Shown: piece by piece, positions 26,430-37,524 of the stretch | Layout: each line of letters begins with the position of its first letter | Position numbering within the stretch: position 1 is the stretch's first letter | Assembly: GCA_030601755.1 (NCBI GenBank) | Contig: JAUWBF010000022.1 | Coordinates: 1 to 44,391, forward strand | Length of the DNA: 44,391 nt | Source of the DNA: Verrucomicrobiota bacterium | GTDB taxonomy: Bacteria; Verrucomicrobiota; Verrucomicrobiia; Opitutales; Opitutaceae | Direction: 5' to 3' | Position numbers and translations under genes: made by a program | The notes under the pieces: generated by a model | The model's database searches: none | What the model was told of the DNA's origin: nothing | What the model saw: only the letters and a program-made list of their open reading frames with translations

Positions 26430-26466
26430 TTAACCGCCGCCCCGGGTCACCGTGAAGGTCGACACC

Positions 26467-27168
26467 ATGTCCGCCACACCCACGAAGTTTTCCTCGCTGC
26501 GCGCCGCCTTCTTTTCCGGCCTCCTGCTGCTCGCGCCGCTCGCCGTCACGCTCATCGTCTTCAACTGGCTCGTGCAGCAGGTCGGCGGCCCCTTCCGCAA
26601 CTGGTTCTTTTTCTACGTCCCCGACAACCTGCTCAACGCCCCCAGCCTCGACCTGCTCTGGGACCTCGTCTCGACGGTCATCGTCGTCCTGCTCGTCACG
26701 CTGCTCGGCTACGTCTCGCGTCTCGTGCTCGGCCGCTACTTCGGCCAGATCGCCGAACGCGCCATCAACAACATCCCCGGCCTCGGCACCGTTTACCGCA
26801 CGGTCAAACAGATCGTCGAAACCTTCAGCGTCCAAAAGCGCAACGTCTTCGAAAAAGTCGTGCTCATCCAGTTCCCCCGCGAAGGCTCCTGGGTCATCGG
26901 CTTCCTCACCAACCAGGCGCAGGGCGAGGTGCAGGGACGCACCGAGCGCGACTTGTGGACCATCTTCATGCCGACCACCCCCAACCCCACCTCGGGTTTT
27001 CTTCTGATGATCCCCAGAGAGGACATCGTCGAACTCGACATGAGCGTGGGCGACGCGATGAAGCTCATCATCTCCGGCGGCACCGTCACCCCGCGCTGGC
27101 CCGCGGTCGCGCCGGCGCCCGCACTCCCACCCTCTCCGTCCGCGCCGCCCGACAAAGTAACCCAATAG
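26467..27168 (+). CDS. DUF502 membrane protein
   Basis: The product has 233 residues. Two membrane helices (about 17-38, FFSGLLLLAPLAVTLIVFNW, and about 64-87) enclose a short loop. The DUF502 signature GRYFGQIAERAINNIPGLGT and VYRTVKQIVETFS follows, then a soluble beta-rich part with LIQFPREGSWVIGFLTN. The C-terminus is Pro/Ala-rich and ends VTQ. The family is membrane-bound and uncharacterised. The last codons and the TAG stop lie inside a copy of the GCAAAGAGTAACC palindrome. A GTG at 26452 is an alternative start. Confidence 0.87.
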   Translation: MSATPTKFSSLRAAFFSGLLLLAPLAVTLIVFNWLVQQVGGPFRNWFFFYVPDNLLNAPSLDLLWDLVSTVIVVLLVTLLGYVSRLVLGRYFGQIAERAINNIPGLGTVYRTVKQIVETFSVQKRNVFEKVVLIQFPREGSWVIGFLTNQAQGEVQGRTERDLWTIFMPTTPNPTSGFLLMIPREDIVELDMSVGDAMKLIISGGTVTPRWPAVAPAPALPPSPSAPPDKVTQ

Positions 27169-27179
27169 GTTACTCTTTG
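27153..27179. repeat. GCAAAGAGTAACC palindromic element, copy 1 (at DUF502 stop)
   Basis: CAAAGTAACC (27153-27162), loop CAATA, GGTTACTCTTTG (27168-27179). The right arm is full length; the left arm lacks two bases (AG). The TAG stop of the DUF502 gene (27166-27168) is formed by the loop and right arm. The sequence matches the copy at 28637-28673, with the loop in reverse orientation. Confidence 0.85.
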
Positions 27180-27191
27180 CCCGAGCCAGCC

Positions 27192-27824
27192 ATGGGCCCG
27201 CCCCTCGTCACCGACGCGCTCGTGTTGCAGCGCCATCCCCCCTCGGAAAACTTTCAGCGCCTCGCGCTCTTCAGTCCGACCGAGGGCAACCTGGCCGCCC
27301 TGCAACGCGTCGTCGCCCGCAAAAGCGCCCCCGAGGCCGCGCCCGCCGACCTGTTCGACGAACTCCACCTGCGCCTCGAAACCGGACGCCAAGGCACCGG
27401 CGGCGCCGGCGGCCTGTGGTTTGTGAAAGAGAGCCGCCTCGTCGCCCGCCACGCCGGCATCGGTCGCTCCTACGACGCCCTGCGCCTCGCCTGCGAATTG
27501 TCCGCGCTCGTCGTGCGCAACCCGGTGTCCGACGAAAGCCTCGCGCCCGTCTACGCGTTGCTCCGGCTGGCCTTCGCCGCCTTCGCCACCGGCGTGCGCC
27601 CCGACATCGTCGCCTTCAAGGGCCTCTACTGTTTCGCCCGCGACGAAGGTTACCCGCTCAAACAGGACTGGCTCCCCACCCTCCCCTCCGCCGACCGCGA
27701 GACCGTCGCCGGCCTGCTCGCCCGTCCCCTAGCCGACCAGACCGCCGCTCCCGCCGAAACAGCCCGCCTCCACCGCCGCCTTGCCGACTACCTCCGCGCC
27801 CACACCGAACTCCACCTCGACTGA
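27192..27824 (+). CDS. recO: Putative DNA repair protein RecO
   Basis: The product has 210 residues. The N-terminus TDALVLQRHPPSENFQRLAL followed by FSPTEGNLAALQRV matches the RecO OB-fold start (xxAIVLrxxxxxExdrlvxlfT). The middle (LFDELHLRL, ESRLVARHAGIGRSYDALRL) and the helical C-terminus also follow the RecO plan, though the cysteines of the zinc-binding forms are missing. RecO loads RecA on gapped DNA together with RecR. The location behind ybeY is common for recO. It overlaps the next gene by one base (TGATG). The gene is divergent enough that I hold the name with moderate confidence. Confidence 0.68.
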   Translation: MGPPLVTDALVLQRHPPSENFQRLALFSPTEGNLAALQRVVARKSAPEAAPADLFDELHLRLETGRQGTGGAGGLWFVKESRLVARHAGIGRSYDALRLACELSALVVRNPVSDESLAPVYALLRLAFAAFATGVRPDIVAFKGLYCFARDEGYPLKQDWLPTLPSADRETVAGLLARPLADQTAAPAETARLHRRLADYLRAHTELHLD

Positions 27825-30226
27825 TGCGCTACGACCTCGATCAACGCACCGTCACGCTCGGCATCGGCGAGTTCGCCACTTTCGCCACCGGGCCGCGCGA
27901 CGACACCGGCGGCGGCCACGCCGGGCTCTGGCGCGCGCAGCTCGGCTCGCATTGGCATCGCGAACTCCAGCTCCGCGCCACCGAGAGCGAGCCCAACGCC
28001 GCCTTCGAAGTGCCCATCGAGGGCAAGATCGTGCACGCCGGCTGGATCGTCTCGCTCACGGGCCGCATGGACCAATACCTGCCCGGTCCCGCCGCCACGC
28101 TCATCCGCGAGATCAAGACCACCCTCCGTCCCCTGCCCCGCGCCGAGGACGAGCTGCGCGCCGAGCACCCCGACTACGTCGTCCAGCTCGCCACCTACCT
28201 CGCCCTGCATCGCGTCGACCGGCCCGACCATCCCGTCAACGGCGAACTCGTCTTCGTCGAGGCCGGCAGCGGACTCAGCCAGACGATCAAGTTCACCCGC
28301 GACGACGACCACCTCTTCCGGCAGCGCCTCGACCGCCTCACCGCGTTCCTCGACCTGCGCCTCGCCGCGCGCGACCGCCTGCGCAACCTCCGCTTCAACC
28401 CGCCCTTCGCCACCCTGCGTCCCGGGCAGGAAACCACCCGCGCCGACCTCGCCGCCGCGCTCGCCGCGCACGACCGCATCCTCTTCACCGCCCCCACCGG
28501 CTTCGGCAAGACCGGCGTGCTTCTCGAATGCGCGCTCGAACACCTGCGCGCCGGCCGCGCCCAACGCCTCGTCTACCTCACCGGCAAGGCCACCGGCCAA
28601 CTCCAGGTCACCCGCACCCTCGCCGCCATGACCACCCCCGCAAAGAGTAACCTATTGGGTTACTCTTTGCGGGAGCCTTTGCCTTCCAGCGAGATGCGCG
28701 GGGTTCAAAACGGCGTGGCGGCGTGGGTGATGCGGCCAAAAAAGGAGCATTGCGTGAACTCGGTGTTTCACTGCACGCGCGAGTCGTGCGGCTACCTGCA
28801 CGACATCGAGGGACGCTGGCAACGCGCCGGCTTGGGACGTTTTCTCCACTTCGAAAACCAGGCCCGCGACCTGCCCGCGCTGCTCGCGGCCGGCAAACAC
28901 GCGCACGTCTGCCCCTACGAGATCACCCGCGCCGCGCTCGGCTACCAGGACGTGTGGGTCGGCGACTACAACTACGTCTTCGCGCCGGCCAACCGCCGCA
29001 TCTTCTTCGAACAACCCGGCTGGGAACCGGCCGACACCTTGCTGGTCATCGACGAGGCGCACAACCTGCCCACCCGCGTCGCCGACGCGCACTCGCACCA
29101 GGTCAACGCCACCGACGCGCAGGCCGTGCTCGCCGAACTCGACCACCACGACGTATCCACTCCGTTGTTACGTGCCTGGGAGGCCTGGACCCGCCTGCTC
29201 GCCAACCTAGACGCCTGCGACGAACTCGACCTCATGCTGGAGGACGACGTGCACGAGGCCGTGCGCACCGTCGCCGACCGGCTGGCCGGCGCGGCGCTCG
29301 ATCCCGCCGCGCTCGGCCCCGTCGTCTGCGAACAGCTCTGGCGTTTGCCGGTGCTGGCCGAGTGGCTCGACCGCCGCGACATGCCGCGCCTGCTCTGGTC
29401 GCCGCGCGCGGGCGAGCTGCACTTCACCTGCCTCGACGCCTCCGCGGCCATCGCCGAGACGCTGGCGCCGTTCGGCGCGGTGGTCTTCGCCACCGCCACG
29501 CCGGGACCGGCCGGAGCGTTCGCCGCCGCCTGCGGGCTGGGCGAGGAGACGCCGTTGCACACGCTCGACGCGCACACTCCGTGGCGGGCCGAGGCGTATT
29601 CGATCGGGTATGACGTCCGCGTGGACACCAGTTACCAAAAACGCGAACGTCACCTCGGCGACACCGCCGACGCCGTGGCCGAGCTGCACGCCGCGGCGCG
29701 CGGGCCGGTGGCTGTGTTTTTCCCGAGCTACGCCTACGCCGAGGCGGTCGAGCGGACGTTGCAACAACGCCATCCGGGCATGCGCGTCGCCCGCCAGCCG
29801 AAACAGTCAGGACTGGCCGCCCAGGCCGACTGGATGGAGACCGCGCTGGCGTTCAACGACGCGTTGTTCCTCGTGCTTGGCAGCAGTTTCGCCGAGGGCA
29901 TCGACGGTCTCGGCGGCCGGGTGAGCCACGCGATGGTCGTCGGCCCCGCCCTGCCCGAGGTCAACGCCGTGCAGCGCGCCAAGCAGTCCGCCGTGCGCGG
30001 CGAGAGTCGCGAGGACGCGTTTCGCCGCGTTTACCAGATCCCCGGCCTGCAAAAGGTGAACCAGGCGCTCGGCCGCCTGGTGCGCGCGCCGGGTCAACAC
30101 GCGAAGGTGCTGCTGCACTGCCGCCGCTTCGTGGAGCCGGGCTACGCGGCGCTGCTCGCGCCGGAATACCAGTTCGGCGACACCATCGCGACCGACGGCG
30201 ACTTGGCCGAGTGGCTAGCTCGGTAG
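27824..30226 (+). CDS. PD-(D/E)XK nuclease fused to an Fe-S (XPD/DinG-like) DNA helicase
   Basis: The product has 800 residues. Residues about 45-180 show a PD-(D/E)XK nuclease: GRMDQYL (Asp83), REIKTTL (Glu96-x-Lys98) and a YVVQLATYLAL helix. A Q-like LRPGQ motif, Walker A APTGFGKT (223-230), LLVIDEAHNLP (DEAH 410-413) and C-terminal QALGRLVRAPGQH (motif VI) define an SF2 helicase. Four cysteines (310, 317, 322, 363: EHC, FHC, ESC, VCPYE) are spaced as an XPD/DinG Fe-S cluster. It probably unwinds and cuts DNA in repair. Residues 272-284 are encoded by a palindromic element. The TAG stop is part of REP pair 2. Start overlaps the recO stop. Confidence 0.9.
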   Translation: MRYDLDQRTVTLGIGEFATFATGPRDDTGGGHAGLWRAQLGSHWHRELQLRATESEPNAAFEVPIEGKIVHAGWIVSLTGRMDQYLPGPAATLIREIKTTLRPLPRAEDELRAEHPDYVVQLATYLALHRVDRPDHPVNGELVFVEAGSGLSQTIKFTRDDDHLFRQRLDRLTAFLDLRLAARDRLRNLRFNPPFATLRPGQETTRADLAAALAAHDRILFTAPTGFGKTGVLLECALEHLRAGRAQRLVYLTGKATGQLQVTRTLAAMTTPAKSNLLGYSLREPLPSSEMRGVQNGVAAWVMRPKKEHCVNSVFHCTRESCGYLHDIEGRWQRAGLGRFLHFENQARDLPALLAAGKHAHVCPYEITRAALGYQDVWVGDYNYVFAPANRRIFFEQPGWEPADTLLVIDEAHNLPTRVADAHSHQVNATDAQAVLAELDHHDVSTPLLRAWEAWTRLLANLDACDELDLMLEDDVHEAVRTVADRLAGAALDPAALGPVVCEQLWRLPVLAEWLDRRDMPRLLWSPRAGELHFTCLDASAAIAETLAPFGAVVFATATPGPAGAFAAACGLGEETPLHTLDAHTPWRAEAYSIGYDVRVDTSYQKRERHLGDTADAVAELHAAARGPVAVFFPSYAYAEAVERTLQQRHPGMRVARQPKQSGLAAQADWMETALAFNDALFLVLGSSFAEGIDGLGGRVSHAMVVGPALPEVNAVQRAKQSAVRGESREDAFRRVYQIPGLQKVNQALGRLVRAPGQHAKVLLHCRRFVEPGYAALLAPEYQFGDTIATDGDLAEWLAR
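28637..28673. repeat. GCAAAGAGTAACC palindromic element, copy 2 (in frame inside the helicase gene)
   Basis: Perfect 16-bp arms CCCGCAAAGAGTAACC (28637-28652) and GGTTACTCTTTGCGGG (28658-28673) flank the loop TATTG. The element is read through in frame and encodes PAKSNLLGYSLRE, between the helicase motif Ia region and the first Fe-S cysteine. In copy 1 the frame shared with recO would read SNPIGYSLPEP, so both copies could encode a similar peptide. Confidence 0.88.
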
Positions 30227-37449: not shown

Positions 37450-37524
37450 GCCAGAGTAGCTCAGTGGTAGAGCAGGGGACTCATAAGCCCTTGGTCGGCG
37501 GTTCAATCCCGCCCTCTGGCACCA
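37450..37524 (+). tRNA. tRNA with CAT anticodon (Met elongator or Ile2)
   Basis: A complete 75-nt cloverleaf with encoded CCA: acceptor GCCAGAG/CTCTGGC, D arm TAGCTCAGTGGTAGAGC, anticodon CAT at 37482-37484 in the loop CTCATAA, and T arm GGCGG-TTCAATC-CCGCC. The lack of a C1:A72 mismatch excludes an initiator tRNA. The TTGGTCG after the anticodon arm resembles bacterial Ile2 tRNAs, whose C34 is changed to lysidine by TilS, so Ile2 is as likely as Met. The base pair 31-39 (A-G) is mismatched. Confidence 0.93.

Follow-up and report, generated by a model that had tools for sequence, protein, structure and literature searches.

The perfect 37-bp palindrome found in frame within a helicase gene of an Opitutaceae genome is probably a copy of a tagless, REP/RPE-like palindromic repeat specific to this bacterial family, the old copies of which would be kept palindromic by template switching or by selection. 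The element, of the GTAACC subfamily, lies at positions 28637-28673 (+ strand) of the window, that is, of the whole stretch of 44,391 nucleotides that was analysed. It consists of CCCGCAAAGAGTAACC, the loop TATTG and GGTTACTCTTTGCGGG, with perfect arms of 16 bp and a 5-nt loop, and is translated as codons 272-284 of an 800-aa ORF (27824-30226, + strand), giving the peptide PAKSNLLGYSLRE (P-A-K-S-N-L-L-G-Y-S-L-R(-E)). Both the sequence and the ORF coordinates thus confirmed the palindrome and its position in the helicase coding frame as proposed in the first-pass annotation. Folded as single-stranded DNA, it reached -19.7 kcal/mol compared to -4.48 kcal/mol (sd 1.77) for shuffled sequences (z -8.6). 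A 19-bp core was found at two places in the window with up to three mismatches and had no match in 100 shuffles of the window; the 17-bp family core of the helicase copy, GTAACCTATTGGGTTAC, spans positions 28647-28663 (no strand assigned). An Rfam scan at gathering thresholds revealed no family at the element, a tRNA gene at positions 37450-37521 being the only match in the window. The peptide is most likely functionless beyond being tolerated.

The second copy in the window (27153-27179, no strand assigned) had been described as a near-identical palindrome covering a stop codon, with its loop inverted. The loop orientation is indeed opposite to that of the helicase copy, and the copy does terminate the ORF before it, a putative DUF502 gene (26452-27168, + strand; ending PPDKVTQ*), by supplying its stop codon, so that this gene has its 3' end inside the repeat, but the palindrome is imperfect, two bases being absent from its left arm (CAAA-GTAACC vs. 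GGTTACTCTTTG), and folds at -6.4 kcal/mol. Similarly, the SNxxGYSLxEP frame attributed to both copies is translated in the helicase one, whereas in the second copy it ('SNPIGYSLPEP') lies just upstream of the ATG of the next ORF (27192-27824, + strand, function unassigned), which starts 12 bp past the repeat, and so is only potential there.

Across the genome to which the window belongs (hereafter the source genome) the motif proved to be dispersed, with 32 copies of the GTAACC type and none for the reversed control, and with 104 copies of a wider family defined by the core GTNACYYAWTRRGTNAC (superfamily GTMACYYAATRRGTKAC). In this genome, the subfamily GTCACTTAWTAAGTGAC and its near variants were about twice as common as the GTAACC type (e.g. 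L014, L021, L031 and about 65 other places). When 252 Opitutaceae genomes were scanned, the wider family was detected in 113 of them and in 30 of 49 genera, at 0 to 104 copies per genome (the reversed control gave one match in each of two genomes), and the 139 genomes without an exact copy included congeners of copy-rich ones. In a phylum-wide sample, the family was present in 21 of 37 Opitutaceae genomes and in none of 350 others, with four matches of the reversed controls, three of them outside Opitutaceae. When the species collection was searched for exact matches to the 23-bp GTAACC form, 60 stretches were retrieved; apart from single ones in a Polaribacter, a Flavobacterium and a Rhodobacterales MAG, all came from Opitutaceae, Opitutus, Opitutia, Lacunisphaera or Verrucomicrobia. 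The Polaribacter (L083) and Flavobacterium (L103) copies were rejected as family members, since each is a single occurrence flanked by A- and T-runs, with the look of an ordinary terminator. The Rhodobacterales copy resembles the type of the source genome, and its contig may be misbinned.

Several genomes had a dominant variant of their own, such as GTCACCTAATAGGTGAC in G002 (20/25), GTCACTTAATAAGTGAC in G006 (all 15 copies listed, of 19) and GTAACCCAATAGGTTAC in G017 (13/14); variants were mixed in genomes such as G050, and G173 holds 17 copies. A tandem array of four copies at exact 90-bp steps was detected in G211 (C2:108235-108521). Long copy-specific arms outside the core were discarded as a general rule, because positions 6-12 outside the core mostly paired no better than shuffled partners (in seven groups, 100, 376, 287, 499, 7, 99 and 170 of 500 shuffles were at or above the observed value) and outer arms of 14-25 were found in a few copies only. 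Simple vertical inheritance of every site was also rejected: the congeners G001, G002 and G006, with 19 to 25 copies per genome (15 of the 19 G006 copies included), shared six site pairs per genome pair, some of them weak.

The gene hosting the first copy encodes the helicase domains DEAD_2 and Helicase_C_2, and a domain scan and homologue comparison placed the insert in a linker that is hypervariable across 68 relatives (69 rows, G103 appearing twice). The family core was found in the same linker of 11 of these relatives, often as another variant (that of G207 with one unpaired position), and a family-like perfect palindrome with a different stem in G001, G025 and G140 (e.g. TTGGTAGTCTAATAGACTACCAA in G140), whereas G019, G026 and G030 had other perfect arms of 8-9. 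The remaining 51 of 68 linkers lacked both the family core and any perfect arm of at least 8 bp, so the segment is absent in most relatives, in agreement with the insertion suspected from the window. By eye, imperfect versions were seen in G237, G241 and G030 among the 20 of 68 relatives whose linker DNA was inspected. This linker (residues ~270-300) also carries unrelated short-repeat peptides in relatives (FNSQLSTA, IPNPKPQIP, SPITHHPLP and SAIRNPHSAF), so that it is a permissive site, the hypervariability of which does not come from the palindrome alone.

A net insertion was also evident in a TatD-like gene, as 26 of 29 homologues had no palindrome peptide in the corresponding loop (G154, one of these, having a few extra residues), the loops of G207, G217 and G109 carrying other variants of it, which read CNLLSY, CHLISD and CNQIGYT, respectively. 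The element may have been inserted recently. No target-site duplication was noticed by eye in the flanks inspected. At other sites the element was shared: an all-versus-all comparison of element-bearing ORFs revealed at least the following orthologues in which different genomes carry the element at an identical or almost identical codon position, namely a UvrA-like gene (G037 and the MAG JANYFP), an epimerase-like gene (G014 and JANYDX), a SRAP-like gene (CAMBLN and JANJTQ), a GH2 gene (the source genome, CAMBLN and G039), an RsmB-like gene (the source genome and JANJTQ) and an Ogt-like gene 75% identical between the source genome, with a GTCACTT variant, and JANJTQ, with a GTAACC variant. The names UvrA-like, epimerase-like, SRAP-like and Ogt-like are presumptive, motif-based assignments.

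A further shared position was in a SAM-methyltransferase-like gene (C53:68490-69197 in the source genome), where many genera have a palindrome in the segment following the residues HADAT. Relatives including G207 and G217 have this gene next to the RsmB-like one, unlike the source genome. Distinct perfect stems were found at the site in G220 (arms of 16), G012 (GTCATC/GATGAC), G166 (TTCACTT/AAGTGAA), G239 (GTCACG/CGTGAC) and G020 (GTCAAC/GTTGAC), so that the two arms changed in a compensating manner, whereas in genomes such as G002, G104, G106 and G109 a palindrome was not found. Over 37 genomes, pairing at positions 3-12 summed to 6.35, compared to a mean of 4.57 and a maximum of 5.43 in 2000 shuffles, for 37 of 39 rows (G241 and G103 dropped), six with a hand-set register and several included because they hold a palindrome, relatedness being uncontrolled. 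Both loop orientations were present, with 13 T-centred and 10 A-centred loops counted by eye. Among clearly parsed rows, 9 of 15 distant homologues (40-47% identical) parsed cleanly with 9 residues, compared to 12-13 in many of the closer homologues, and several decayed versions still kept 13 residues. The insertion thus looks old, and its stem looks to have been altered by compensating substitutions.

Such a history could also mean that old intragenic copies are permanent sites at which the hairpin is actively kept, the codon being fixed across genera and the stem rewritten. The ~25-bp palindromes would then evolve in concert, copies possibly being replaced in situ by a process acting in trans. 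We regard this as a tentative reading, with the odds somewhat against it. It is favoured by genus g34, where the unusual variant seen in the helicase of G140 occurs also at a different old site, the methyltransferase of G138, which points toward replacement in situ; counting against it, the methyltransferase of G140 itself holds a different palindrome.

The location of the copies was analysed in the source genome for 71 of 72 units (101 of 104 sites), with a crude codon model that missed the helicase copy itself. As judged from one-sided coding calls, the 3' end of a gene faced the element in 28 of the 71 units (13 and 15) and the 5' end in 3. Of the others, 9 lay in frame inside ORFs, 2 were flanked by convergent genes, two groups of 8 and 4 had coding flanks running in the same direction, and 17 had no coding call. 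Together with the helicase copy and those in an Ogt-like (L345) and a ThiE-like (L332) gene, both presumptive assignments from motifs, at least 12 of the 72 units are in frame. Hosts include the TatD-like DNase, the RsmB/F-like methyltransferase, a chorismate-binding enzyme with a doublet between its two domains, and the GH2 enzyme, and several of these copies sit in loops or linkers. A number of in-frame hosts resemble DNA-repair genes (the helicase and the UvrA-, Ogt-, SRAP- and TatD-like genes).

The reading frame that passes through the core as S/C-N/H-x-x-G/S-Y/D is free of stops in both orientations, so that in-frame insertions in loops and linkers can be translated. A second frame (VTYWVT) is open with some loops only and is used in the GH2 gene, although its segment RVTYWVTLSL could be native, and the third frame contains a stop. 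The dispersed palindromic element postulated from the window, tolerated in genes since one reading frame stays open, was supported.

Many copies were found to be arranged as doublets, mostly inverted, and singles also occur. Spacings below 100 bp, 62 in number, fell at 44-47, 53-58, 65-69, 75-79 and 87-90, the intervals 48-52, 59-64 and 70-74 being empty. They thus recur about every 11 bp (R = 0.70 at 11 bp, reached in 0 of 5000 jittered sets), although spacings within one genome are non-independent if doublets copy one another. In the source genome, the doublets measured 62-108 bp core to core, and the two loops had opposite orientation in 19 of 29 and the same in 10 of 29. There, the motif CCTCTG was present in the spacer of 8/8 GTAACC doublets, 1/19 GTCAC doublets and 1/2 mixed ones, and two doublets folded as single strands gave long hairpins. 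A phasing of about 11 bp suggests a putative protein complex that would bind both halves, and the doublet may be the amplifying unit.

The arrangement in inverted doublets, the placement at gene 3' ends and the intragenic copies, in the same host family, are as in the published GTAG REPs, and the element might be a member of the GTAG REP super-family of O. terrae, a canonical REP/REPIN for which a RAYT (Y1) transposase would be the mover. Y1 genes were detected in 216 of 252 Opitutaceae genomes, and the palindrome in 104 of these 216 compared to 9 of the 36 without Y1, a weak link (Fisher p = 0.011, with no phylogenetic correction). However, neither a GTAG nor a CGTC tag stood out beside the core in 101 copies of the source genome (33 + 68), and the palindrome was absent from its three Y1 loci, two of which lie near contig ends, one flank being short. 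It was also absent from the 10 top-scoring Y1 loci of relatives, a weak test as the palindrome is present in no more than 4 of the 10 genomes concerned. Moreover, no Y1 match was found in G015 (97% complete, 17 copies), G170 (94%, 15 copies) or G231 (93%, 10 copies). No mover was found among the Y1 loci inspected (3 from the source genome and 10 from relatives), and a canonical REP appears unlikely. Three identically scoring Y1 transposase matches were seen in tandem, with 836-bp spacing, in G106 (IMCC26134; C1:723729-725730).

The helical phasing of the pairs, the orthologous positions common to several genera and the fact that the sole exact superfamily copy of G105 lies in the methyltransferase gene would also fit a non-mobile sequence conserved as the binding site of a protein, MatP-, Noc-, SlmA- or ParB-like, that organises the chromosome or regulates genes. 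We consider this quite unlikely in view of the net insertions relative to homologues, of the Opitutaceae genomes without an exact copy, and of cores that differ between genomes and stems that change by compensation, with no fixed sequence. Finally, palindromes arising and perfected in place at hairpin-prone loops by template switching alone, with no mobile element, would account for the compensating multi-base changes, for arms extending into adjoining codons (G220, 16 bp) and for both loop orientations at one orthologous site, the mechanism being known to homogenise arms and invert spacers, as stated in PMC8604942 and PMC8794818, but this is highly improbable as it can neither give dozens of unrelated loci in one genome an identical 17-bp core nor phase doublets.

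Under the preferred explanation, a putatively mobile, family-specific repeat, the doublet would be what amplifies, through a protein complex for which the two palindromes must lie on the same face of the DNA, and singles would be what remains of doublets. Insertions would predate the divergence of genera at some sites, such as the methyltransferase and probably the helicase and the Ogt-like, RsmB-like and UvrA-like genes. Template switching during replication, with one arm serving as template for the other, may keep the old copies palindromic, or selection on the hairpin may do so.

The element makes it possible to follow, across a whole bacterial family, how mobile DNA is taken up by protein genes, a natural experiment in which a single short palindrome, with one frame readable on both strands, was placed in loops of repair and metabolic proteins. 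The helical phasing of the doublets points to a candidate protein handling two palindromes together, and the compensating stem changes within coding sequence make persistence of the palindrome by selection or by template switching testable.

Regarding known systems, the likeness to the Rickettsia palindromic elements (RPE) noted in the first-pass annotation holds for behaviour but not for descent. RPEs are of ~150 bp and are inserted in frame in unrelated genes, with one open frame and a recurring peptide, as described in PMC10969869. In-frame palindromic insertion in coding genes, absent from homologues, was likewise found here (TatD-like gene, helicase), but the Opitutaceae element measures ~27-37 bp singly (core of 17 bp), or the length of its doublets, and has another sequence in another phylum, and several of its copies occupy the same sites across genera. 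With MITEs it shares the small, non-autonomous format, the inverted ends (here, inverted doublets) and intragenic fusions, whereas here no target-site duplication was seen by eye, no parent transposon was identified and each end is itself palindromic. Hairpins kept by template switching through compensatory changes, studied in RNA genes in PMC8794818, share the stem changes, but here they affect a dispersed repeat in protein-coding genes.

The closest parallel is found in the REPs tagged with GTAG or CGTC. According to Di Nocera et al. (2013; PMC3733652), these are short palindromes, single or paired in dimers whose spacers mostly measure 20-100 bp; they lie chiefly between genes, close to gene 3' ends, with some in frame in genes, many of them repair genes; the recB gene of two Xanthomonas species holds a REP at about the same site. 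Most GTAG REPs have stems of 6-9 bp, and many are intragenic in O. terrae, of the same family Opitutaceae, according to the same paper, so that the earlier statement that no such element was known for this lineage is not supported. Among the matches listed in a search of the open-licence literature on palindromic repeats of Verrucomicrobia or Opitutaceae and on Opitutus terrae REPs, there was no other description. The element described here has the inverted dimers (19/29 with opposite loops) and the 3'-end location (28 vs. 3) of the tagged REPs and, like them, sits in repair-like genes in several cases. It is set apart from these REPs, by description only, by the lack of a GTAG or CGTC tag in the copies of the source genome, the 16-bp arms in the window, the ~11-bp phasing and the fact that no nearby Y1 gene was seen. 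In-frame REPs of the GTAG type were thus already published for Opitutus terrae, and the Opitutaceae element is a tagless form with phased doublets.
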